This document shows, one piece after another, positions 9,351-63,549 of a DNA stretch of 64,000 nt; position 1 is the first letter of the stretch; every line of letters begins with the position of its first letter. The stretch covers positions 14,081,295-14,145,294 of the forward strand of contig CP092869.1 in NCBI GenBank assembly GCA_030710605.1. The letters run 5' to 3'. The notes under the pieces were generated by a model. It was not told the origin of the DNA. It saw nothing but the letters and a program-made list of their open reading frames with translations, and ran no database searches. The stretch is from Cordylochernes scorpioides. Lineage: Eukaryota > Arthropoda > Arachnida > Pseudoscorpiones > Chernetidae. The position numbers and the translations under genes are program-made.

Positions 9351-9644
9351 GGAAATGTAAACTACTTATAATGCGTCTGTTTCTTTAAAAATGAAACAAA
9401 TTTCTACGTTGTTCTTAATGCATTGATAAAAGTGATGTGAGGGCTTGGCTAAACAGTGGTACACTCTCTCAGCGGTTTCACCATTCCTATATGGCGGTGC
9501 ATTATAGCCGTTGAAAAATCAAATTTGATTAGATGACCAATGATCTTCTACAATATGGGGAATGTTCTTGATGGTATCAGTAAGGTAGTGGTGATAGAGC
9601 TTCAGCTTTGACTTCTTCGTCAGGTATTAACTAATCACCGCACA

Positions 9645-11360: not shown

Positions 11361-11759
11361 ACAATAAAAAGCATTTTTTATTTATTGTAATTAAGATCAT
11401 TAATGTAGAGGAAATTTTACACTAATAGATATGTAGAGATTAACGTGGAGGGGATCAGAGAGTGAAAACATATCTAATATTGGATGGTTTCAACAGCCTC
11501 TTACGCTGCCAAGATAAACTATGATAAAAACAAACACAAGTTATGAAAACATCCCACAGAAAAACACACTTAGCTCTTGTTTTGCAGCTAAGATTTTCAA
11601 GGTTATTTGGCACTAACTCTTCAAAGCGCCTTTAGTTAAGACATTTCAGTCTTCTACCAACAACATCAGCTCTTTTTACCTATCATAGAGACTTATGGAC
11701 AATTTTCTTGAATGGTAGTCTCAAGACAGGACTTGTATTCCAACCCTACCAATATTATG

Positions 11760-11925
11760 ATGCATTAGCGCGCCATCTGTTATGAAAATTTGAAACTAGG
11801 CAGTAGAAATTGTTTTATTTTAAAAAGAAGAGCCAGGCCCTCCCATTAATTTTTCCATTACAGTAAGGACAGTAGAAATTGTTTTATTTTAAAAAAGAAT
11901 CATACGCGTCTATAATAGTTTCGTA
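11760..11925 (-). mobile_element. Family B, rearranged copy
   Basis: It contains TTAGCGCGCCATCTGTTATG, then GAGCCAGGCCCTCCC, CAGTAGAAATTGTTTTATTT twice and ATACGCGTCTATAATAG. The hammerhead-like core half with CGAAAC is missing. Confidence 0.65.
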
Positions 11926-12166
11926 TTTTCCTACCAAGATTGTAAATTTGATCTATTAGTCTCCATGACCTTGTATAATTATACAATGGTATAATAATGG
12001 AAAATATCAATGGATATACAAAAATTATATGCAAATAAAGATAAATATATTTATATACACACATATGATGTAGAAATTCAAAATTGCCCTCTATCGATAA
12101 AATTTGTAACAAATAAATTTACCTTCCATAGTAAACACAGGGTATATCCCAAACCAATCCTATACA

Positions 12167-12240
12167 ATAGTAGAGCGGTCTAGAGATTAATTTGACGAAA
12201 CCGCTGAGAGGGTTCACTGCTGATGAGCCAAGCCCTCTCA
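12167..12240 (+). ncRNA. Hammerhead-like core in permuted order (family B, copy 1)
   Basis: In 5'-3' order the sequence has AGCGGTC (12174-12180), TTGACGAAAC (12192-12201), CCGCT, GAGAGGG (12206-12212), CTGATGAG (12220-12227), GCCAA and CCCTCTC (12233-12239). These are the three conserved hammerhead blocks plus four complementary pairs: AGCGGT/ACCGCT, TTGAC/GCCAA with one A-C mismatch, GAGAGGG/CCCTCTC, and a weak stem-I pair. The block order is not that of known type I, II or III hammerheads. Ribozyme activity is an inference. An 81-bp array follows directly. Confidence 0.45.
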
Positions 12241-12632
12241 TTCAATAACTTATATCATTGCAGTAAGGTCTGTAGAGATAATATTTGATGATATTATTGA
12301 AAAGAAACACATTGCCACTTATTCAATAACTTATATCATTGCAGTAAGGTCTGTAGAGATAATATTTGATGATATTATTGAAAAGAAACATATTGCCACT
12401 TATTCAATAACTTATATCATTGCAGTAAGGTCTGTAGAGATAATATTTGATGATATTATTGAAAAGAAACATATTGCCACTCATTCAATAACTTATATCA
12501 TTGTAGTAAGGTCTGTAGAGATAATATTTGATGATATTATTGAAAAAAACATATTGCCACTCATTCAATAACTTATATCATTGCAGTAAGGTATGTAGAG
12601 ATAATATTTGATGACATTATTAAAAAGAAAAA
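12240..12632 (+). repeat. Tandem array, 81-bp unit x5
   Basis: Five near-identical units (ATTCAATAACTTATATCATT ... GATAATATTTGATGATATTA) start immediately 3' of the hammerhead-like copy 1. The unit corresponds to the downstream body of family B; a palindromic version of it is at 34631-34763. Confidence 0.9.
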
Positions 12633-12991
12633 TATGTTCAGTAAATGTATTTGTTTTACAAACATGATATAAATACACAAAGAGTTTTAGTTTAATTATA
12701 TTTTCAGTAGAAGAGATCTAGAATATAACGTAATTTGGTAAAACTTGTCACACAAATGTAGGCCCTATATCTATAGTGGATTGTACAGCATGGCTACGAT
12801 AGATGAGTTAGCTAATCAGTAGGATTTCTATAGAAGCACGGCTAGACTACAAGACACAGAATGCTTAGCCTTCCTAACTCTATGATACTCATTGCAGAAA
12901 TTGTTTCACTCGTAAAACTACACATACCACAATCTGAAAAATCAATAGAAAAATTAAAAAATAAAAAATAGGTCAGGTCTTGATATAAAAA

Positions 12992-19519: not shown

Positions 19520-20370
19520 ATATACTTTAATATCTATAAAGGTCACCTCTCCCATCAAAATAGATGCTAAAATGAAGCGCCATCTGTTGACCGTCGACGA
19601 AAACTAGCGAACTCGGTTCAATGATAAAGCCACAACATTAACTTTGGCAAATAGAGAAACGCTCACCTGAAGACCATGATTTCGGACTATTGTCCTTTGT
19701 CAGTCCAGGGTGGGCTTTGATTTCATGAGATCTACACAAGGAATCAAAGGAAATCTTCAGTATTTTACAAAGAGGCGTGTTAGCACGTTTTCTTTGAACT
19801 TTCTTCTAGAAAGAACGAGCTGACTCACTTCGATTCAATTCGATTTATTTCAAACAACAAAAAAGAATTACACTAAGATTTAATGCGATTTAGTTGTATT
19901 CATAACATAAAAGAAAAAATAGACTATATTAACACAAAGAAAAACAGAAGAAGAAAAAAAACAATAAAAAGAATGATGATAAGAGAGAGAGAGAGAGTAA
20001 CAATAGAATTCTATGAATTATAATTAATTAATAAAATACAATAATAATAATTAAAAAAAAAAACTGACAAGGCGTTTAGATGGTAAAGTTGCGAGGTCAA
20101 TTCTATGGCAAAAATATAGATGGAAAGTTTTGTCTATATAAAAATGAAGGTTATCTCTCTCCTGTCAAAATAGAACTCCCTATCTCAACTTGAATATTTG
20201 TACAATCGGCTGGATTCATTTCTTCTGTCCTTCCTACCTGAATGATACCCGATTTATAATACTTAGCATACATTCCTGCTATAATCAAATTTTGTACCTT
20301 GTGTGTATGTCAACTTTATATTTACATATTAAATAAAATAACCGACATTTAATGAAGATATTCAATAATA
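19520..20370. other. AT-rich sequence with GA microsatellite
   Basis: Contains (GA)n at 19983-19998 and a GCGCCATCTGTTGACCG phrase at 19574 similar to the family B terminus. Nothing else recognised. Confidence 0.5.
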
Positions 20371-20375
20371 CGATA

Positions 20376-20550
20376 CACTAGCGCGCCATCTGTTATGAAA
20401 ATTAGAAACTATTTTAGACGCGTATAAGATTCTTTTTGAAATTAAACAATTTCTACTATCCTTAATGCAATATGGAAAATTTAATGGGAGGGCCTGGCTC
20501 ATCAGTGGTGAACCTTCCCAGCGGTTTCGCCAGTTTATTCTATCAATAAT
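20376..20550 (-). mobile_element. Family B element, single arm with hammerhead-like half
   Basis: On the - strand it reads ATAAACTGGCGAAACCGCTG, GGGAAGG, CTGATGAGCCAG, CCCTCCC, GACGCGTATAAG complement and ends CAGATGGCGCGCTAGTG. The stem-II pair is CTGGC/GCCAG where copy 2 has TTGGC/GCCAA, a compensatory change. No AGCGGTC lies upstream. The left flank of the arm begins near the predicted cleavage position. Confidence 0.7.
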
Positions 20551-20754
20551 ATCAAGCAGATATATATACAAATAAGCTGCTGTAAATCCTTTCACAAGGA
20601 CCTTACGTATATTTGACACATGGTGTCCTGTCCGTGCTCTCTTTGTGTTTTGACATTTCTGATTTACTTAGATTGCTAGTCGGTTGTATATCCTTGCTAA
20701 ATGCTGCATGGATCATTTTAACTTTTCCAAAGTATACGTAGTGCAATCATTGGT

Positions 20755-27821: not shown

Positions 27822-27933
27822 TTTATTAGACAGGTCACTTTTAATATAAATCGCATCGTACTACGTATTTAAAATCGGGCGCTATAGAGAGAGAGGCGCT
27901 ATTTAGAGGGGGCGCTATAGACAGGTTTAACTG
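27822..27933. mobile_element. pogo-like MITE, family 1, left-truncated
   Basis: The right two-thirds of the same element is present, ending GACAGGTTTAACTG followed by TA. The left terminus is missing. Confidence 0.75.
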
Positions 27934-28067
27934 TATTTTGTAAAAGTATAGCATTAGCTGATGAATCATTTTATAGAATTGGTGTATTTCCAGTCGTTAG
28001 TAAGTTCATCTACATCAAGATTCGATCTGTCCATGTGATGTGATACCTACAGTAGATACATACTTAC

Positions 28068-28141: not shown

Positions 28142-28461
28142 CTGCAAGTAGACGCAACTCTACTTCCCGGTGACCCAGGTTCAAATGATTGTCAACCTAA
28201 TTTTTTTTCTCTCGTCGATGACATCCTGGTGGGAGAGTTGTCCGGACCACCGCAATCTCTTCAACTTCTTTTTTTTATTTCTTTAACACGACAGGCGTCA
28301 TATTGTACTTACTTAGTTGTGTTGCCATTTTGATGAAGGTACAAATATAGAAATAAATATGTTTTTACTGTCCTATAAGCTTATGTCCATAGTTTTTCTG
28401 AGATTCCACCCTTCAGTGCTGCGTATATAAGCAGAATCGTCCAGATACAGTATTAGAGCTC

Positions 28462-28535
28462 TGAGAAGCGGTCTGGTGGATTAAATTGGCGAAACCGCTG
28501 GGAGGGTTCATCACTGATGAGCCAAGCCCTTCCTA
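28462..28535 (+). ncRNA. Hammerhead-like core in permuted order (family B, copy 2)
   Basis: This is the best-preserved copy. AGCGGT (28467-28472) pairs with ACCGCT (28494-28499). C28473 would be the cleavage-site base. TGGTG (28474-28478) pairs with CATCA (28509-28513), and TTGGC (28486-28490) with GCCAA (28521-28525). GGGAGGG (28500-28506) pairs with CCCTTCC (28527-28533) through one G-U. GAAA is at 28491-28494 and CTGATGA at 28514-28520. In this order stems I and II form between two hairpin loops, as a kissing complex. Confidence 0.5.
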
Positions 28536-28678
28536 TATGTTTTTTCATCGCGGTAAGGAGAGTACAAGTTTGTATTATTTATAAAAGAAACATTCGTGCT
28601 TTTAAATCCTTTCATTTTATATGTTTTTCTCTCTATGTTCCATTTTTTTTTCAATTAAATTTTATTTATATATATATA

Positions 28679-28839
28679 CAGTTAAACCTGTCTATAGCGC
28701 CCCCTCTTGGGACTCACCAAAATAGGGTGCTATAGACAGGTCACTTTTAATGTAAAATGTTCACATTTTAATATTTAAAATCGGGCGCTATAGAGAGGAA
28801 GGCGCTATTTAGAGGGGGCGCTATAGACAAGTTTAACTG
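28679..28839. mobile_element. pogo/Tigger-like MITE, family 1 (161 bp)
   Basis: The ends are CAGTTAAACCTGTCTATAGC and GCTATAGACAAGTTTAACTG, flanked by TA on each side. The interior has repeated GGCGCTAT motifs (CGGGCGCTATAGAGAGG). CAGTnRAACC termini with TA target sites are characteristic of the pogo/Tigger group of Tc1-mariner elements. It has no transposase. Confidence 0.85.
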
Positions 28840-29154
28840 TATATATTCTCTAATAACGAAAAAACTAGATCTTTGGACAGAGTTTCTTTATTTTGAGATG
28901 TTGCAAGCTTTCCAATAAAATTTTGCTCTTCAACGTTCAAATCCAAGAACAAATGACGAGAGATGATATCGGACGTGAATAGTGTAAAAGCTCCAAGCTT
29001 TCAAAGTTTCACAAGTCTTCTTCAGACCAAAGATAGCAGATAGGGATCCTATTAAAAACGAACCACGTATTGTAGTTGTGTTTTGATAATGCTCTGCAAT
29101 TATCCTAACCATTATGATAAGTTTTCGTATAATGTTAACCATTGCAACACAATA

Positions 29155-31559: not shown

Positions 31560-32700
31560 ATTTTCCTCCCGGTAAAATGGCCCCTGTGATACCAGTTCGG
31601 CGGTACAACTACTACAATAGGAACGATACAGAGAAAATTAGCATGACCCCTGTGATACCAGTTCGGCGGTACAACAACTACAATAAGAAGGATACAGAGA
31701 AGATTAGCATGACCCCTGTGATACCAGTTCGGCGGTACAACAACTACAATAAGAAGGATACAGAGAAGATTAGCATGACCCCTGTGATACCAGTTCGGCA
31801 GTACAACTACTACAATAAGAAGAATACAGAGAAGATTAGCATGACCCCTGTGATACCAGTTCGGCGGTACAACAACTACAATAAGAAAGATACAGAGAAG
31901 ATTAGCATGACCCCTGTGATACCAGTTCGGCGGTACAACAACTACAATAAGAAGGATACAGAGAAGATTAGCATGACCCCTGTGATACCAGTTCGGCAGT
32001 ACAACTACTACAATAGGAACGATACAGAGAAAATTAGCATGGCCCCTGTGATACCAGTTCGGCGGTACAACTACTACAATAGGAACGATACAGAGAAAAT
32101 TAGCATGGCCCCTGTGATATCAGTTCGGCGGTACAACTACTACAATAGGAACGATACAGAGAAAATTAGCATGGCCCCTGTGATACCAGTTCGGCGGTAC
32201 AACTACTACAATAGGAACGATACACAGAGATTAGCATGGCCCCTGTGATACCAGTTCGGCGGTACAACTACTACAATAGGAACGATACAGAGAAGATTAG
32301 CATGGCCCCTGTGATACCAGTTCGGTGGTACAACTACTACAATAGGAAGGATACAGAGAAGATTAGCATGGCCCTTGTGATACCAGTTCGGCGGTACAAC
32401 TACTACAATAGGAACGATACAGAGAAGATTAGCATGGCCCTTGTGATACCAGTTCGGCGGTACAACTACTACAATAGGAAGGATACAGAGAAGATTAGCA
32501 TGGCCCCTGTGATACAAGTTCGGCGGTACAACTACTACAATAGGAACGATACAGAGATTAGCATGGCCCCTGTGATACCAGTTCGGCGGTACAACTACTA
32601 CAATAGGAAGGATACAGAGAAGATTAGCATGGCCCCTGTGATACAAGTTCGGCGGTACAACTACTACAATAGGAACGATACAGAGATTAGCATGGCCCTT
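31560..32700. repeat. 66-bp minisatellite, ~17 units, open on both strands
   Basis: The unit of 66 bp (22 codons; some of 63 bp) encodes repeated PVIPVRRYNYYNRNDTEKIS-like peptides on + and a Val/Pro-rich peptide on -. Because the unit is a multiple of three and lacks stops, frames of 234, 158 and 169 codons result. Differences are mostly shared between neighbouring units. No splice sites, promoter or homology indicate a gene. Confidence 0.9.
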
Positions 32701-32759
32701 GAGCAAGGATGACATGAAAAATCGTGAAGCGTTCTCACTACCGCTGACTATTATTGATA

Positions 32760-34205: not shown

Positions 34206-34630
34206 GTCATTATTGTAAATATGATCAACTGGGTTTCTCTTTTTGAGCGGCATCCGATAATGTTATTTTGAACTGGAACTATTTAAGATCTCAGTAAAAA
34301 GAGAAAATGCTAATCTCTGTAACAAAAAAACTATACAGAGAAAAGTCCTTGCTGGAAATTTACATTCTAGCGAAGTTATTTTGGTCCCCGAGCCAGAACC
34401 GAATAACCAAGGAAGAAAAAAAGCGAACTGCGTCTATATTTGTGGTCCATCGATATTTTTGGCTTATTTTTGGGATAATGAAGTATGTCTCCTTGTGAAG
34501 GCATCCTTTAGCCAACCAAAGATTATTCAACCTGGATATGTCCACATTTTTAATTACTTTTTTTTTTACAACTCTCTAAATAAAACTCAAAGGTAACAAT
34601 CTCCAAAATATATACATATATATATTATTT

Positions 34631-34763
34631 ACTGGAAATGCGTTTCTTTTAGATATCATCAAATATTATCTCTACAGACCTTATTGCAATGATATGTAAT
34701 TTGCAGTAAGGTCTGTAGAGATAATATTTGATGATATCTAAAAGAAACGCATTGCCAGTAAAT
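34631..34763. repeat. Inverted repeat, ~60-bp arms
   Basis: TTACTGGAAATGCGTTTCTT ... is mirrored by AAGAAACGCATTGCCAGTAA. The arms match the 81-bp unit at 12.2-12.6 kb. It can form a long hairpin. Confidence 0.85.
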
Positions 34764-42151: not shown

Positions 42152-45100
42152 CTAAGATTCCTTCTCTTTTTTCCAATTCAAGAGAAAGTTGTATATGTAT
42201 TTACAAAATTGATCAAAATTTTTATACTTTTCTTTTTTGTCTACAAATTCATCAAGCTGTCCAATACGACCAAATCTATTTTCCCTAAAATCCCGGAAAA
42301 TTGGGCACTCCAGAAGTAGATGTCTCGCGTCTTGAATTTCACCTCCGCAGAAGCATCCTGGTTCCTTCACGGCGCCGATAGTTGCCAAAAATTTCCCAAA
42401 ATTGCCATGATCTGTAATGAATTGGATATTATAAAAATTTGGACGGAAAAATCTTGGAATTCCTAATTCGAAAAAGCTTCTGAAAATTACATTAGTGTTC
42501 TCAAAAATTTCATTCATTTTTGCGTGTAAGAATGATTTGACTATACTTGGAGCATGGGGTTCGTAAGTAATTAGATCTTCAATGGACATTTGAGCTAGAT
42601 CAAATTTGATTATTCTGGATTCTATATAATCTGTTAGGAGTGGAATTTTTGCCAAGCTATGCACACAGTTTGATGAAGTAGTTTTGTATGCTCTAACTGC
42701 CCATAAAATGATCTGGTACTGCATGGAGTTCAGTTTTTGTTTACAACGATTGTTTAAATATTTGAACCAAATTTCAGAACCGTATGTAAGTACAGGCCTA
42801 ATGATTGTTTTGAATAAAGTTAACCTCTTTTCAGTGTCTAAACCCCACATATTGCCACTTAGTGAACATAATAAATTTTTCATACGTCCTGCCTTACACA
42901 GAATATCATTAACATGCGGTGTAAAGTTAACTTTGTTTTTCCATTTGTGATTAGAAAATTTCATTCCCAGAATTTTTACTTGCTTGACCGGCATTATTAT
43001 ATTGTTATTAACCTTAATAGGTATTTTTTGTCTGTTATGTAGGTATAGCATATTAGTCTTCTCTGTACTGATCGTTAATTTATTTCTATTACACCATTGG
43101 ATCACATAATTTAAGGTGTATTCACTTGCGGTTTTTAGTCCTTCAATAGTCTTATTCCAGCAAATTATTGTAACGTCGTCTGCATAACATATAATATCTG
43201 CATTCATTGAATCAAAATTTATCAACAAATCATTTAGCAAAATATTCCATAGAAGTGGAGATAAAGGTCCACCCTGTGGACATCCTTTAGTTAGTTTCTT
43301 ATAAAAAGTTTCTGATTCGTATGTAAATTTCACCTCCCTTTCATTATTCAAATAAGATTTTATGATCCGTATTAAATCTGAAGGAACATCATCATTATCC
43401 ATTCTTTTTATAATAGCAGGCCACCATGCATTGTCGAATGCACCCGCAATATCTATAGCTATCAAGGAAGTCAATTCTTTTTGTTTATGTTTCAATATAG
43501 TTTCTATAATTTTATCCATTCCAGTAATTGTTGATCTAGATTTCATAAAACCATGCTGCCTTGAGCTCATTAAATTATTCTCTAAATAATAGTTACTTAA
43601 TTTATTTTTTATTATATTCTCAAATGTTTTAGCTAGATTAGATGTCAATGATATAGGTCTATAACTTTTATTTATTTCATAATTCGTTTTGCCTGGTTTT
43701 GGAATTATTTTTAAGAATGATTTTTTCCATTCATCCGGATAATATCCCATTTCTATACATTTATTGAATAATTTATGCAGAATTGGGATTATTTTTATTT
43801 TAGCCTGTCTAATCATATTGTTACTAATGTAATCAGGGCCCGGTGCTTTTTTAATATTTGTTTTTAAAATTGTTTCCTCTATTTCCTTAGATTCGATATA
43901 AACACTACTTTTATTTTTATATTTAGGCGTATAATTTCTAATCAAAATATGATCATCTTTATCCAAACCTCCAATATCATCCTGAAATAGATCGTTCATT
44001 AAACTTTTTATTTTGTCGGTCTTTAAATGATCTGGTAAATTATCTATTAGTGGTAATCCTAAATTTCTATTTTTCGATCTCAATGACTTGAATATCCTGT
44101 AAGCATTACCAAATGAGTTATTTGAATGACTTTCTTCTATAAAAATTCTCCAACTCGCTCTTTTTGCCTTTTTACTTTTATTTAAATATTTATTTCTCAT
44201 TGATTTATAGGTCTTTTCAAGGACCTTTCCATGTCGGTAATACAAATTTCTAATATAGTGGAAATCGTTTTTCATTTTCTCCAGCTTCCCATCCCACCAG
44301 TATGTATTTGTTTTATGATTTCCGCTTCTTGTCTTGACATTTAGTGACAGATAAGCTGCCTCTTTAATTATTTGTGTGAGAGTCTTTACAATGTTGTCAA
44401 TATCTTTGATGTTTGACGCGTGGTTTATCATGGTGATAATATTATCTACGTCTTGTATTGCTATTTTTTCGGTAAATGTTTTCCAATCAGCATCTTTTTC
44501 TATAAATTTCCATGTTGAGTTTTGAACTGTCCTTTGCCTGTTAAAATTGTGATAAATGTCAAAGGTTATTGCTACGTGATCTGAAATGTGCGTCAATATA
44601 GTCGTCTTCCAGTTTTGTACCAAACCTATTGATTTTTTGTTTGAAATCGTAAGATCTATAAAGCTAGAATTTCGGCAGGTGGGTATCTTAAGATTATGAA
44701 TAAATAGGTTATGTTCATCTATGATGGAGTGGAATTTGAAACCATTGGAGTTTGTTGTCGGATCAAACCAGACTGGGTGTCTTGAATTAAAGTCACCACA
44801 TAGTATAATAGGTTGTTGATTGTAGGTCTCCAGAAGCTCTTGAATAAATTTTCTATGAGTGTCATTAAATCTATGTGGATGTATATAAAAGTTTGCGATA
44901 ATAGTATTTGATTTTGCTGAATTTAAAGAAGTGGTTGTACAAAAGGAGTTTGTGAATTTATTGATTTTATTAAATTTTAAACTCTTATTCATAAAGATCG
45001 TTGCAGTATAAATTTGTTCATCTGTCGTTGAATGCACTATTTGAGATTCCAAATCGAAAATTACATCTCTATCAATCAGATAAGGTTCCTGTATTAGGAT

Positions 45101-45211
45101 GATATCTGGTGGGTTGTCTTTTATAGAAGCTTGAAGCTCATTCAGTGCCAAGATACTTTTTCTTACATTTTGTTGTAAACATTTAATTCCTTTTCCCTGC
45201 ATGATATTCAA
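42152..45211 (-). CDS. R1-clade LINE ORF2: endonuclease and reverse transcriptase, intact frame
   Basis: This uninterrupted frame of 1019 codons encodes an APE-type endonuclease at residues ~10-225, with QNVR, LIQEP, GDFNSRHPVW (~138) and SDHVAITF (~207). The reverse transcriptase spans ~430-720. It shows SYRPISLTSN, AIDIAGAFDNAWWPAII (~585-600), KGCPQGGPLSPLLWN and the catalytic CYADDV box (~675). Near residue 952 there is a C-terminal cysteine-histidine motif (CFCGGEIQDARHLLLEC). No RNase H domain is visible. The AFDNxWWP signature and domain order point to the R1/TRAS clade, whose proteins nick target DNA and prime reverse transcription on it. The copy lies antisense in the IQSEC intron. 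The absence of stops over 3 kb suggests recent insertion. Confidence 0.92.
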   Translation of the reverse strand: MNIMQGKGIKCLQQNVRKSILALNELQASIKDNPPDIILIQEPYLIDRDVIFDLESQIVHSTTDEQIYTATIFMNKSLKFNKINKFTNSFCTTTSLNSAKSNTIIANFYIHPHRFNDTHRKFIQELLETYNQQPIILCGDFNSRHPVWFDPTTNSNGFKFHSIIDEHNLFIHNLKIPTCRNSSFIDLTISNKKSIGLVQNWKTTILTHISDHVAITFDIYHNFNRQRTVQNSTWKFIEKDADWKTFTEKIAIQDVDNIITMINHASNIKDIDNIVKTLTQIIKEAAYLSLNVKTRSGNHKTNTYWWDGKLEKMKNDFHYIRNLYYRHGKVLEKTYKSMRNKYLNKSKKAKRASWRIFIEESHSNNSFGNAYRIFKSLRSKNRNLGLPLIDNLPDHLKTDKIKSLMNDLFQDDIGGLDKDDHILIRNYTPKYKNKSSVYIESKEIEETILKTNIKKAPGPDYISNNMIRQAKIKIIPILHKLFNKCIEMGYYPDEWKKSFLKIIPKPGKTNYEINKSYRPISLTSNLAKTFENIIKNKLSNYYLENNLMSSRQHGFMKSRSTITGMDKIIETILKHKQKELTSLIAIDIAGAFDNAWWPAIIKRMDNDDVPSDLIRIIKSYLNNEREVKFTYESETFYKKLTKGCPQGGPLSPLLWNILLNDLLINFDSMNADIICYADDVTIICWNKTIEGLKTASEYTLNYVIQWCNRNKLTISTEKTNMLYLHNRQKIPIKVNNNIIMPVKQVKILGMKFSNHKWKNKVNFTPHVNDILCKAGRMKNLLCSLSGNMWGLDTEKRLTLFKTIIRPVLTYGSEIWFKYLNNRCKQKLNSMQYQIILWAVRAYKTTSSNCVHSLAKIPLLTDYIESRIIKFDLAQMSIEDLITYEPHAPSIVKSFLHAKMNEIFENTNVIFRSFFELGIPRFFRPNFYNIQFITDHGNFGKFLATIGAVKEPGCFCGGEIQDARHLLLECPIFRDFRENRFGRIGQLDEFVDKKEKYKNFDQFCKYIYNFLLNWKKEKES

Positions 45212-45246
45212 ACTAAATAAACAAAAATCTTAGCTGCGAAATTTGC

Positions 45247-46155
45247 CTAATTGTCGGTTGGATGATATCTCGTTCGTTGGATAATTCTGTCTATCTGTAT
45301 TTTGTATAGAGGACAGTCCGAGGAATTAGCTCTATGATTCGGCGAGTTTCTAAATTTAGGATGTTTTAGACAGTTATAACAATTGCAAATTTTTGAACAG
45401 TCATGAATTCCTTGCGCGCCGCATAATTTGCATATCTTGACGTTAGCACAATCGGCCAATTTATGGTTGGGATTAAATTGAAGGCATTTCTGACATTGTT
45501 TTACCAGAATCTTATCTTCCACAAAACAGCGTTCAAAGTCAGTATATAATTTATTATTCATATTTTTAAGGATTCGGTAAACCTTTGGAGAAACCCTAAG
45601 AACTATGTTGTGGTGGGGCGTGTTCGATTTCATGCTAAACAGAACATGGATATCATTTTCCATTTCGTTCAATTCAGGGTTCATACTGCAGATTGTTTTA
45701 GTAAAATTAGCGGTTTCTGTAAGTTTATTAACATTTTTGACTATTACTGTAGGATCTCTTGGTTTGGGGATAAAAATTTTGCTGATATTTGCGAGTTCCT
45801 CTGCCCTGCCTAACTCATCATTTAGAGATTCCATGTCTGATTCTGTAGGGGTCTTTATTATTACAGATTTCCTAGCATTTATAATTTTGTTAATCTTTAT
45901 TTTTTTTCCTTCATCCCTAAGCTTTTTAACTTTGCCTGATATAGTTTGATACATTTTTGTATTATCTTCCACATTTATAGGTGTTGCCACTATTGTGAAC
46001 TCCTTATGTAAATTTTTTTTTTTTTTTATGTAATCTTGTGATGTTTCTGTACGAGCTACTTGAGCATATGTTGGAGTTGTTTTGACTAATTCATCTTGGA
46101 TCCCTTTCAGTTTTTGGTCCATAACATCTGTAATTGTTGTTTTCATTAGTTCCAA
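45247..46155 (-). CDS. R1-clade LINE ORF1 (Gag-like nucleic-acid-binding protein)
   Basis: This frame of 302 codons lies upstream of ORF2 in the same retrotransposon. The N-terminal ~200 residues are Lys/Glu-rich with no clear domain. Residues ~221-285 hold clustered CCHC-type zinc knuckles (CQKC...H..C, CKLCGAQGIHDC, CYNC...H..C), as in Gag-like ORF1 proteins of R1, TRAS and jockey elements, which coat the element RNA. The stop is 35 nt before the ORF2 start. A poly-A run near residue 45 encodes consecutive lysines and is a likely slippage site. The usual R1 ORF1 is longer and no long 5' UTR follows, so the copy is probably 5'-truncated and the first Met at 46155 may not be the natural start. 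Confidence 0.8.
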   Translation of the reverse strand: MELMKTTITDVMDQKLKGIQDELVKTTPTYAQVARTETSQDYIKKKKNLHKEFTIVATPINVEDNTKMYQTISGKVKKLRDEGKKIKINKIINARKSVIIKTPTESDMESLNDELGRAEELANISKIFIPKPRDPTVIVKNVNKLTETANFTKTICSMNPELNEMENDIHVLFSMKSNTPHHNIVLRVSPKVYRILKNMNNKLYTDFERCFVEDKILVKQCQKCLQFNPNHKLADCANVKICKLCGAQGIHDCSKICNCYNCLKHPKFRNSPNHRANSSDCPLYKIQIDRIIQRTRYHPTDN

Positions 46156-46290
46156 TATATATTATTTTTTATTTGAATTATTTATATTGAATTTTTTATT
46201 TGATTAATTGAAAGAATAGTTAAACATATATTTCTCTGATTCTCCACAATAGTTGACATGGAAACAAAGAATTCTACATATTGTAATATC

Positions 46291-48350: not shown

Positions 48351-48420
48351 TCTATTGACATCTTGTCAATACATACAAAAGTACACAGTCTGCACTATTT
48401 AAAAAAATATAATTATATAT

Positions 48421-48512
48421 GAAAATTCAAAACTTATTTTAGACGCGTAAGATTCTTTTTGAAATTAAAATAGTTTTGAATTTTCATAACAGATGGCGCG
48501 CTAGTGCATCGT
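48421..48512. mobile_element. Family B, terminal fragment
   Basis: The short piece from GAAAATTCAAAAC, TTTTAGACGCGTAAG to CAGATGGCGCGCTAGTG, partly palindromic. The AT-rich 15-mer AATATAATTATATAT occurs on both sides and may be a target duplication, but it is low complexity. Confidence 0.65.
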
Positions 48513-48544
48513 AATATAATTATATATATATGTGTCATACTATG

Positions 48545-49783: not shown

Positions 49784-50065
49784 CAGTTAAACCTGTCGCC
49801 CCCTCTTGGGACTCACCAAAATAGGGTGCTATAGAGATGGGGTGCTATAGACAGGTCACTTTTAATGTAAATCGCATCGTACTACGTACAGTTAAACCTG
49901 TCTATAGCGCCCCCTCTTGAGACTCACCAAAATAGGGTGCTATAGAGAGGGGGTGCAATAGACAGGTCACTTTTAATGTAAATCGCATTGTACTACGTAT
50001 TTAAAATCGGGCGCTATAGAGAGGGAGGCGCTATTTAGAGGGGGTGTTATAGACAGGTTTAACTG
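49784..50065. mobile_element. pogo-like MITE, family 1: left half joined to a full copy
   Basis: From 49784 to 49888 there is the left part of the element, ending ...ACTACGTA. A full copy from 49889 to 50065 follows directly. After the full copy, the right half expected if it had simply inserted into the first is absent. Recombination or deletion between copies is therefore more likely than plain nesting. Confidence 0.8.
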
Positions 50066-50084
50066 TATTATATGTAAATTTCAT

Positions 50085-50500: not shown

Positions 50501-50575
50501 TTTTCTTCTTATTTTTTTTAATACAAAGTTGTGTTAGATTAAATCTATAATTGTTAATTTGTAGCTAGGCTTATA

Positions 50576-50735
50576 CAGTTAAACCTATCTATAGCACCCC
50601 CTCTAAATAGCGCCTCCCTCTCTATAGCGGCCGATTTTAAATACGTAGTACGATGCGATTTACATTAAAAGTGACCTGTCTATAGCACCCTATTTTAGTG
50701 AGTCCCAAGAGGGGGCGCTATAAACAGGTTTAACT
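50576..50735. mobile_element. pogo-like MITE, family 1, inverted copy
   Basis: A complete copy runs from CAGTTAAACC to GGTTTAACTG with flanking TA. It is inverted relative to the copy at 49889-50065, about 510 bp away. Confidence 0.85.
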
Positions 50736-50844
50736 GTATTTGGAAGTAATTTTAGGCCTTGCTGTAAATCTCATTTAAATTGAGTGTTGTTCAGAACAAC
50801 AACAACAAAGTACATGTGTTAATACACAATGTGTGCGGAAAAAC

Positions 50845-54676: not shown

Positions 54677-54834
54677 AGAATTCTAATCTATATAATCCAA
54701 ATTGTATTTAATCATTAAGTTGATGATTTGTTGTCTCTAACTAAAGAATCCGCTGAACTGTGGTGATGTTTCCCCATTACATTCCATGTATATTCCCTCC
54801 ATCCTCCATGACAGATGTGTGATTGGCTGTCCAG

Positions 54835-55339
54835 GTACGAGCTGTCCCAAGACCTGCTAGACAAGCAGGTGGAGATGCTAGAGCGGAAGTATGGTGGTGT
54901 ACGTGCACGCCATGCTGCTCTGACTATACAGAGAGCCTTCCGCAAATACTGCATGATGAAGAGGTTCAGGGACATTGCCAATGCCTCTAAGGGAGAGCGG
55001 AGGCTATCTCGCCGGCTGTTCTCCCAGGAAGGAAGCAGTCTGTTCAACAACGGGGAGAGCAGTCAGTCGTACCTGTACCGTGAGCTGGGAGAGAGCCGCA
55101 CTGTGGTGGCCACCCGCTCCTCTGAGGCAAGGCGCCACCTGGAGATCAAGATCTCCAAGACCACTCTCACTACCACCACCAACGGCCATTACTCCCCACG
55201 TCCCTCCATGCTGGCGCACCACCCCTGCCACTGGACAGCCTCTCCGCCACCCCTACGGACCCCCAACTCCCCCTCTTCTCCACCCCATCTGCTTAGTCCG
55301 GCCCTCACCCGGGACTCCATCTCCTCCGAAGACAGCTCA
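54835..55339 (+). CDS. IQSEC: IQSEC/schizo-loner Arf-GEF, IQ-motif exon
   Basis: This internal exon is 505 nt long, with acceptor GGCTGTCCAG before 54835 and donor GTAAGT at 55340. It enters in phase 2 and leaves in phase 0. It opens with YELSQDL followed by [13 protein letters not shown], the hallmark of the IQSEC family. Next comes an IQ motif ([15 protein letters not shown]), which in this family binds calmodulin. The remainder is low-complexity Ser/Pro/Thr-rich linker (for example [14 protein letters not shown]) and ends SISSEDSS. The catalytic SEC7 domain and the PH domain are not in the window and should lie 3' of 64 kb. The frame stays open past the donor to 55492, but that extension is repeat sequence (see 55405-55700) and is not family-like. 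The GC content and codon use stand out sharply from the AT-rich flanks. Confidence 0.9.
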
Positions 55340-55404
55340 GTAAGTCCATCACACTTCACTTTGCATAACAACCTCTTTCCTCCTATTCCATACCTAATGA
55401 AGAG

Positions 55405-55705
55405 AATTTGGTTTGTTGTTGTGTCCAATGAAGAGCCCAGATGTCTCTATACATCTCTATCACAGCAGTCATTCTCTATCTTGGGTGTGTAAAGTTGCTG
55501 TTCTGGGTCTATGTCAATTTTCTGTTGTTGTCGTGTCCAATGAAGAGCCTCAGATGTCTCCATACATCTCTATCACAGCAGTCGCAATGTCCTCTATCTT
55601 GGGTGTGTAAAGCTGCTGTTCTGGGTCCATGTCAATTTTCTGTTGTTGTTGTGTCCAATGAAGAACCTCAAATGTCCCAAACATCTCTATCACAACAGTG
55701 TCAAG
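55405..55705. repeat. Tandem repeat, ~118-bp unit, ~2.5 copies
   Basis: Units contain TGTCCAATGAAGAGCC, CATCTCTATCACAGCAGTC, CTATCTTGGGTGTGTAAAG and CTGGGTCTATGTCAATTTTC. They start just after the donor of the IQ-motif exon. An inverted dispersed copy is at 30998-31150. Confidence 0.85.
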
Positions 55706-61208: not shown

Positions 61209-61719
61209 TTTTCACAAATAAATTAAACTTCTACTGTTCTTACTACGATAAAAAAATATTGGGAGGGCTTGTCTCATCATTGAAGCATTTAATTCCAATT
61301 TCCCAGCAGGGAACACCAGCTGAACCAGCCAAGTAAGACTTGTTGTTGTTTTACTTCCTCCCTTGTCTGAACACTGACAATTCCCTTGTTGTTTTTTTGT
61401 CTTGTGTGAAGTAAACATAATTAAATCTCTCCTTTGAGAACAATACAAATTAACTTGGCGAGAAATGTTTGGAGTGAAATTGGCCCTTCTTGTTTTTTGT
61501 TTAATTAGTTTTTATTGTTATCAAGCGTCTCCTGTATTGTATTGTGTGTACTGTAAGAACTTCTTTTTCTCTCTGTCTCTCACAAGTCTACATCGATGTC
61601 GCAGTAGAACCTCTTTTAAGAAACTGTCTGGAGAGATTATACCATGGTTTCAAGGGGATTGGTAAAAGATAGGTACACACTGCCACTTTTTGATAACCAA
61701 GTTTCAGAATTGAATAGAT

Positions 61720-62430: not shown

Positions 62431-62801
62431 CAAAATGCATTGTTTTAATGCATTTTTAAAGGGAGAGGTACCTATCTTGGTATAGTGTTTACATATAGTA
62501 TCTATCGAAGCTAAAGTACGGAGTATGCCCAGAGACAATAGTACTTGCCCAACAACCTCGTCTAATGACTCCACTGATTGATGAACCACTCTGATTGGTT
62601 AATGAGGAAGTGCTTGTCTATTGGCTGAATCCATTCTGTTCTTCCTCTCGCGTGGCAACTTTTGTGTCAAGTGTAAACCAGTGTCTACAGAGCATTGCTT
62701 CTACAACAGATGGTGATACATCAAGGCAGGTTACAAACACAAGGTAATAAGACCTAATCCAAATAAATAGTGTGTGACGTTTCTTTTACACCGTTGTTAC
62801 T

Positions 62802-63272
62802 CACAAATTACAAAACTATTTTAGACGCGTAATATTCTTTTTTAAAATGCTAAAAATGAAGAGAAAAAGTTTTCTTTATTAAAATATATATTTAAAATAT
62901 ATTTTAATAAAGAAAACTTTTTCTCTTCATTTTTAGCATTTTATAAGCCATTAAAGAGAAATTTCGTGATTTTCGTTTTAATATTCTTTTTAAAATAAAA
63001 CAATTTCTACTGCCCTTACTGCAATGGAAAAATTAAAGGGAGGGTCTGGCTCATCAGCGGTGAACCCTCCCAGCGGTTTTGCCAGTTTAATCTACTATTT
63101 TATTATATTGTTAGATTAAACTGGCGAAACCACTGGGAGGGTTCACCACTGATGAGCCAGGCCCTCCCTTTAATTTTTCCATTGCAGTAAGGGCAGTAGA
63201 AATTGTTTTATTTTAAAAAGAATATTACGCGTCTAAAATAGTTTTGTAATTTGATAACAGATGGCGCGCTAG
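62802..63272. mobile_element. Family B element, 471-bp palindrome with 15-bp direct repeats
   Basis: Two ~165-bp arms in head-to-head orientation meet at 63098-63112 (GCCAGTTTAATCTAC..TTAGATTAAACTGGC). The right arm keeps CTGGCGAAAC and CTGATGAGCCAG. The left arm has CAAAAC in place of CGAAAC. TACACCGTTGTTACT flanks the element at 62787-62801 and 63273-63287. The host is an inverted-repeat family T copy that continues on both sides. The left arm is itself interrupted at 62842-62978. Confidence 0.85.
62842..62978. mobile_element. Small palindromic insertion inside the family B left arm
   Basis: A 137-bp segment flanked by TAATATTCTTTT (62830-62841 and 62979-62990). Most of it is a near-perfect palindrome with arms of ~46 nt (AAATGCTAAAAATGAAGAG ... 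CTCTTCATTTTTAGCATTT). The right arm of family B lacks it, so it is younger than the inverted duplication. Confidence 0.8.
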
Positions 63273-63549
63273 TACACCGTTGTTACTATCTTCAGACAAA
63301 AGTACTGAATGAAGTTCAGATGTTCATTCAGTACTTTTGTCTGAAGATGGTAACAATGCTGTTACCTAAACTATGTTACCACACTATTTATTATTTATTT
63401 GATTTTGGTCTTATTACCTTGTGTTTATAATCTATAATCCAAAATAGACAAAAGTACAAAGTCTAAAATGGGATAAAATTGAGAATTCTGAACTTGTAGA
63501 ACATAAAAAAATCACAGGGCATAATTTCAATCTAAAAGAAATAAAGATA

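Follow-up and report, generated by a model that had tools for sequence, protein, structure and literature searches.

Does a short stretch of pseudoscorpion DNA that holds all the parts of a hammerhead ribozyme in an unfamiliar order encode such a ribozyme, and what might it do for the repeat that carries it? The stretch lies at 28467-28533 (+) of the window, by which we mean the whole 64,000 nucleotides analysed here from contig CP092869.1 of Cordylochernes scorpioides.

The ribozyme and its place among hammerheads

A sequence-only reading of this DNA had claimed that every hammerhead block is present in reordered form, and this is borne out: the core letters are complete, four helices can be drawn, and the blocks bearing the cleavage site (S), GAAA (G) and CUGAUGA (C) follow one another in the order S-G-C. 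Block S (28467-28480, +) comprises the arm IIIa AGCGGT (28467-28472), C17 (28473) and Ia TGGTGGA (28474-28480), with the cut predicted between C28473 and T28474. The Ia-IIb loop TTAAA (28481-28485, +) leads to block G (28486-28499, +), made up of IIb TTGGC (28486-28490), GAA (28491-28493) and IIIb ACCGCT (28494-28499), which begins with A15.1. Hairpin IV (28500-28533, +) carries block C in its loop, its arms IVa GGGAGGG (28500-28506, +) and IVb CCCTTCC (28527-28533, +) enclosing Ib TTCATCA (28507-28513, +), CTGATGA (28514-28520), IIa GCCAA (28521-28525) and a G (28526). Stems III, I, II and IV have 6, 7, 5 and 7 bp, respectively; all 25 pairs are standard, three of them G-U. The Ia-IIb linker is 5 nt, and the linker between stem III and helix IV is 0 nt.

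A strict descriptor (core motifs plus four helices of at least 4 bp each, both strands) matched the 64-kb window once, at 28467-28533, and none of 100 dinucleotide shuffles; a relaxed descriptor with 3-bp helices and without helix IV found three matches in the shuffles. Rfam hammerhead models gave no match in the window at gathering scores and none in 28300-28700 up to an E value of 10. A 5S rRNA-like match upstream of the ribozyme (17.2 bits against a gathering score of 38; E 0.56) and weak snoRNA matches were set aside as chance.

Since S-G-C is no circular permutation of S-C-G, the window ribozyme falls outside hammerhead types I, II and III. The earlier claim that this order matches no known hammerhead must nevertheless be withdrawn, as the accessible text of Eckert et al. 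(2023, PMC10085705) describes it as 'type-SGC', a natural non-circular permutation. The window copy has the S-G-C order with the NUH, GAAA and CUGANGA core letters, stems I, II and III and the I/II helix of that type. In the same text, 583 type-SGC sequences are predicted, their source being metatranscriptomes and no named organism's genome. Five type-SGC RNAs were cleaved at the expected site, while a sixth, without the nucleotides at the site, was not; the RNAs cut in cis during transcription in vitro, constructs SGC-1 to SGC-5 reacting at 0.007-0.13 per minute, and in one RNA all four helices were probed by disrupting and compensating changes.

As far as that account goes (PMC10085705), the pseudoscorpion ribozyme shares with HRIMA-1 and type SGC the block order, the conserved core letters, stems I-III, the short Ia-IIb linker and the helix that links stems I and II at their far ends. 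It differs in the length of that linker (typically 3 nt in HRIMA-1, 5 nt in the window copy) and in stem I, which is fixed at 5 bp in HRIMA-1 and has 3-7 bp in the pseudoscorpion family, depending on the subfamily. The setting differs as well, type SGC being metatranscriptomic and found beside hairpin ribozymes, whereas the pseudoscorpion copies lie in animal DNA inside a retroposon. The near-zero linker had been raised as a steric worry. The worry is real, and it has already been met in nature: the linker between stem III and the I/II helix spans 0-44 nt among type-SGC members, including a few cases of 0 nt that their authors, in the text available, call not obviously compatible with the crystal structure (PMC10085705). 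Action in trans or as dimers, offered earlier as an alternative, is thus possible but not required, given cis cleavage by type-SGC RNAs and the few published members without a linker (PMC10085705).

Covariation in stems I-IV, the check proposed with the original reading, gives a mixed picture. In a hand alignment of the window copies, three pairs have changed on both sides: GC has become AU at the second pair of stem I and also at the second pair of helix IV, and UA has become CG at the fifth pair of stem II. Stem III has no double change and so contributes no covariation. When six window copies were aligned with MAFFT, 85.6% of 125 cells were paired, against at most 51.3% with one strand slid. 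Shuffles of these six copies reached that pairing in 2/500 cases, the covariation score in 7/500 and the number of double-change cells in 25/500; the two remaining measures of the five, double-change pairs (63/500) and further pair types (281/500), fail to beat the shuffles. Because MAFFT misplaced a gap in copy 12174, its five double-change pairs include artefacts, and the hand alignment gives three. The same three recur among 20 distinct complete copies from contig C1 of the assembly, a set preselected for pairing. In these, columns 12/43 of outer stem I are paired in 9/20 copies and columns 11/44 and 14/41 in 16/20. Pairing is kept in stems II, III and IV and in the inner part of stem I, but not in its outer part in subfamilies B and C.

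An abundant family and its copies in the window

The earlier reading had also supposed that a repeat family spread the ribozyme, and this is supported: across the assembly (2.62 Gb, 24 contigs), the pattern of blocks G and C has 25,726 + 25,855 = 51,581 exact matches, and the reversed pattern has none. The Ia-to-IVa stretch of subfamily A alone has 8,233 + 8,037 exact matches genome-wide. Among the first 100 places listed for the G+C pattern, all within the first 4.3 Mb of C1, the whole ribozyme can form in 62 (stem III at least 4 bp, I at least 3, II 4 and IV at least 6), and the other 38 cannot form all helices; exact AGCGGN is kept in 54 of the first 74. If the share of 62/100, taken from this one stretch of C1, held throughout, the genome would contain about 32,000 complete ribozymes. 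The G+C motif had no match in viral and genome contig collections or among plasmids, where arachnid DNA is not expected.

Three subfamilies can be distinguished. Subfamily A has AGCGGTC|TGGTGGA and the stem II arms TTGGC/GCCAA; B has AGCGGTA|TGGTAGA and CTGGC/GCCAG; and C has AGCGGTC|TAGAGA, helix IV GAGAGGG/CCCTCTC and Ib TTCACTA. Position 17 is therefore a C in subfamilies A and C and an A in subfamily B, and the NUH rule permits either nucleotide there. Unit lengths, taken from neighbouring complete copies, are 371-375 bp for A (eight units), 371 bp for B (one) and 368 bp for C (two). The units have a GC content of 38% and no coding frame, and they contain a TATA-like box whose first nucleotide lies 49 nt upstream of the cut in A and 39 nt upstream in B and C. 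Between one A unit and one B unit, 63/67 ribozyme columns are identical compared with 190/320 other columns, which makes the ribozyme the better kept part of the unit.

Copies are dispersed, tandem and head-to-head, some with target-site duplications. Locus L009 contains tandem, near-identical units with perfect ribozymes, and at C1:7156415-7161945 eleven exact matches on one strand are followed by four on the other, with a usual spacing of 372 bp. Subfamily C also forms a tandem array with a 122-bp unit at L118 (G000:C1:3060463-3061563), where the tail of each unit runs straight into U1.1, as if cut monomers had been joined end to end.

At E<1e-10 the family is represented in the window by eight copies or fragments, and weaker tail units occur besides. 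Block S is present in two of the eight, and one window copy is intact, the subfamily A copy with the ribozyme at 28467-28533; this extends over 28440-28612 (+), with 95-97% identity to other genomic copies over 28440-28560 and a profile match to about 28611. The other, a subfamily C copy at 12174-12239 (+), is damaged, with one mismatch in stem II and a weak stem I, and is followed on its 3' side by a tandem array of its 81-bp tail unit (12237-12635). These two copies share no upstream homology beyond IIIa. The copies at 20545, 63109 and 63097 belong to subfamily B. We had considered that 20545 and 63109 start inside Ia, an idea dropped because complete subfamily B copies have Ia TGGTAGA. The remaining members are a decayed copy at 9360-9485 (-) with CTGTTTA in place of CTGATGA and without block S, a fragmentary copy with an inverted 3' end (11750-11936), a 5'-truncated copy (61211-61285, -), a tail-only copy with an inverted 5' part (48421-48513) and a head-to-head pair of C-type tail units (34623-34757).

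Three of the window insertions are flanked by duplications. The subfamily B copy at 20371-20545 (-), which lacks IIIa and nucleotide 17, lies between 9-bp repeats TATTATTGA (20543-20551 and 20362-20370); random junction pairs match as well in 47/200,000 cases, or 32/20,000 with free boundaries. If the whole duplication is target DNA, this copy starts at 20542, 3 nt inside the predicted cut, and its homology to intact B copies extends to the cut itself. The head-to-head subfamily B pair at 62802-63273 (63097 minus, 63109 plus), whose left arm holds another palindromic insert, has an exact 14-bp duplication ACACCGTTGTTACT (62788-62801 and 63274-63287), and the tail-only copy at 48421-48513 has one of the same length, ATATAATTATATAT (48407-48420 and 48514-48527). 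The inverted 5' parts of copies recall twin priming, although this is an inference.

Several other repeats share the window. A short repeat beginning CAGTTAAACCTGTCTATAGCGCC occurs at 27827-27936, 28676-28846, 49797-50073 and 50572-50739, and two of its copies flank the ribozyme copy. A 66-bp tandem array at 31577-32743 (17.1 units by TRF) consists of units corresponding to positions 1-65 of U6 snRNA in Rfam, with 14 U6 matches above the gathering score, and ends in one full-length U6-like copy (32641-32743). An open frame at 54812-55492 (+) may resemble an IQ-motif exon of an IQSEC/Schizo-type gene.

Copy ends and the predicted cut

Turning to the ends of the copies, we mapped 79 loci (78 from C1 and the window) onto the units, which yielded 159 inner 5' ends and 147 inner 3' ends. 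The 3' ends concentrate at unit positions 141-190 (100/147), and AGATGGC lies at position 154 of unit A and position 151 of unit B. Within the window, A(A/G)YAGATGGCGY is a recurrent word, present at 11770, 19577, 20383, 30474, 31495, 48488, 60557 and 63256, and AACAGATGGCGC with up to two mismatches has 10 matches where 1.84 are expected, also outside the ribozyme family; it is perhaps a 3' end common to several repeat families.

The 5' ends are scattered over the whole unit, with minor groups, except that 16/159 lie right at the predicted cut, on positions -1 and 0. Of the separate adjacent pairs, the runner-up (positions 52-53) holds six, and the 11 ends on the other 19 positions within 10 nt lead one to expect about 1.2 on two positions. 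All ends at -1 belong to subfamily B, since the A before the cut extends the match. Two of the 16 were dropped, L131 because it is the edge of the array from which unit C was taken and L077 for its mutated block S, and ends were merged within the L118 array, between the two arms of L132 and between the two arms of 62802-63273. Ten insertions at the cut remain (L068, L108, L118, L119, L122, L129, L130, L132, 20545 and 62802-63273); the junction is the same in L129 and L130, although their flanks differ, and the ten therefore represent at least nine distinct junctions. An ungapped breakpoint method placed most of these copies at 0 or +1; it merged identical copies and left out those within 52 nt of a locus edge or without an exact GAAACCNCT N14 CTGATGAG, among them copy 63097 (minus). 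Loci chosen for their resemblance to complete copies (L009-L058, 56 distinct copies) had no end at the cut. At L132, two B copies meet as a perfect head-to-head palindrome whose axis is the cut.

A number of genomic copies thus have their 5' ends at the cut after C28473, a position named beforehand from the hammerhead model. Most simply, the RNA that was copied started at U1.1, as would the 3' product of hammerhead cleavage, a reverse transcriptase stop there being a less simple possibility; on the simplest reading the pile-up of 5' ends is apparently a trace, left in DNA, of cleavage in vivo.

A proposed retrozyme-like element and its probable working

Together, these observations lead us to propose that a non-autonomous, retrozyme-like retroposon of about 370 bp has, very probably, the type-SGC hammerhead as its processing signal. 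In this proposal, transcription would start from the TATA-like box 39-49 nt upstream of the cut, a putative promoter, and pass through one or several tandem units. Hairpin III would present Ia and IIb, and hairpin IV would present Ib-CUGAUGA-IIa, with the loops pairing as stems I and II. Leader-bearing or multimeric transcripts may then cleave themselves in cis 3' of C17 (A17 in subfamily B), which would remove a short leader or free a unit-length RNA with a 5'-hydroxyl end. The RNA may circularise, and a resident enzyme would reverse transcribe it where the target is nicked, starting in a preferred 3' region close to AGATGGCGC; such target-primed reverse transcription would give rise to target-site duplications and 5' inversions. 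As the cut removes IIIa, an inserted cut monomer would be unable to cut again, and tandem units or uncut RNA must then keep the family alive.

The nearest parallels are the animal non-LTR retrozymes, which, in the accessible text of Cervera and De la Pena (2020, PMC7229834), likewise have tandem units of 150-450 bp with a hammerhead in each, low GC (38% in the pseudoscorpion units), many copies and target-site duplications of more than 4 bp (9, 14 and 14 bp at the three window insertions). By the same source, retrozymes carry type I hammerheads whereas the pseudoscorpion units carry type SGC; circular RNA has been seen for retrozymes, while the pseudoscorpion family is known here from DNA; and the abundant head-to-head arrangement is unlike retrozymes (PMC7229834). 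Penelope-like elements with type I hammerheads, as described in the available part of PMC11167929, resemble the family in their tandem or partial-tandem copies and in a hammerhead within a repeated UTR, and differ from it in that the pseudoscorpion units have no coding frame and their hammerhead is not type I. The pseudoknot-containing hammerhead of Zhan et al. (2024, PMC11300833) also combines a hammerhead core with a pseudoknot, but there the pseudoknot replaces stem II; it is not S-G-C, and the accessible text mentions no permutation. The pseudoscorpion feature combines known kinds, a type-SGC hammerhead and a retrozyme-like element, and forms no new category.

The genome offers a candidate for the mobilising enzyme. 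GIY-YIG frames are abundant (17,015 first-look candidates genome-wide; of 150 scored, 146 matched), and a Penelope-like enzyme is accordingly a candidate mobiliser; Cervera and De la Pena suggested such an enzyme for retrozymes, according to the text at hand (PMC7229834). Two 801-bp stretches near Penelope-like frames contained no ribozyme, and one of them holds fragments of an A-like unit; the partnership is no more than suggestive. On G000:C1, C14, C3 and C24, GIY-YIG frames are often arranged head-to-head with a few kb between them, which recalls the ribozyme units. A non-LTR retrotransposon (LINE) within the window (42152-46161, -), with neighbouring open frames of 1025 and 304 aa, was rejected as a partner, its 3' end sharing nothing with the element by eye; a match in C. 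scorpioides is 97% identical to the larger frame over 25% of the 500 residues searched, and several others are near 51%.

Some points count against the processing-signal reading, namely the outer pairs of stem I lost in many B and C copies, the two covariation measures that fail to beat the shuffles, the zero linker between III and IV, the loss of IIIa on cutting, the possible start of copy 20371-20545 at 3 nt inside the cut, the lack of ends at the cut among L009-L058 and the failure of the LINE and of the two Penelope-like stretches to yield a partner with this ribozyme. A further point comes from the Penelope-like element PAc: as the accessible text of Frangieh et al. (2024, PMC11167929) has it, PAc inserted in vitro with no need of hammerhead cleavage and no reads fell at the presumed hammerhead cut, which argues against a needed role of cleavage. 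The zero linker could also mean that the cis fold is forbidden and that hairpins III and IV come together from different copies, in trans or in a dimer. Tandem and head-to-head units do put copies side by side, and Eckert et al., as far as their text is available, find zero-linker cases hard to fit to the known structure (PMC10085705); but the published type-SGC RNAs cut in cis during transcription, and the paper lists a few members without a linker, whether or not these are among the RNAs that were cleaved (PMC10085705); we regard an obligate partnership between copies as unlikely.

Two other explanations would deny the present copies any activity. The structure might have been copied from a once active source, the copies now being inert and the pile-up of ends being old or due to reverse transcriptase stopping at a structured stretch. 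The 38 of 100 sampled copies that cannot form all helices, and the single intact copy in the window, would suit such a fossil; yet the near-identical tandem units with perfect ribozymes at L009, and a ribozyme conserved between subfamilies whose remainder has diverged, speak against it, and there is no reason for reverse transcriptase to stop at precisely the position that the hammerhead model had named in advance, which leaves inert copies improbable in our judgement. The head-to-head palindromes invite the other explanation, a palindromic or foldback element acting at the DNA level, its hairpins resembling hammerhead blocks by chance. We find this hardly credible: none of the shuffles matched the strict descriptor, the pairing of stems I and II runs from loop to loop and includes double changes, and duplications of varied length together with a preferred 3' region fit reverse transcription, not cut-and-paste.

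Returning to the processing-signal proposal, a broader form of it also seems probable: that a non-circularly permuted hammerhead serves as the standard processing signal, active in vivo, of a whole arachnid retroposon family, its cut readable from copy ends and palindrome axes. What is new is the home of type SGC, in the genome of the arachnid Cordylochernes scorpioides and inside an abundant small mobile element. No second report of type SGC was among the matches listed in the literature searched, and no paper was found there on a type-SGC hammerhead as the processing signal of an animal retroposon, a search whose scope most subscription papers fall outside. If the proposal holds, type SGC is not confined to metatranscriptome RNA but takes the place that type I usually has in an animal mobile element, and type-SGC hammerheads would gain a named host, a genomic address and a probable job. 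For a fold with a linker geometry that its discoverers left unexplained, the family would supply thousands of natural variants. The proposal would also bear on the origin of non-circular permutations and mean that ribozyme activity can be read from DNA copies and that retrozyme-like elements can run on another hammerhead topology.
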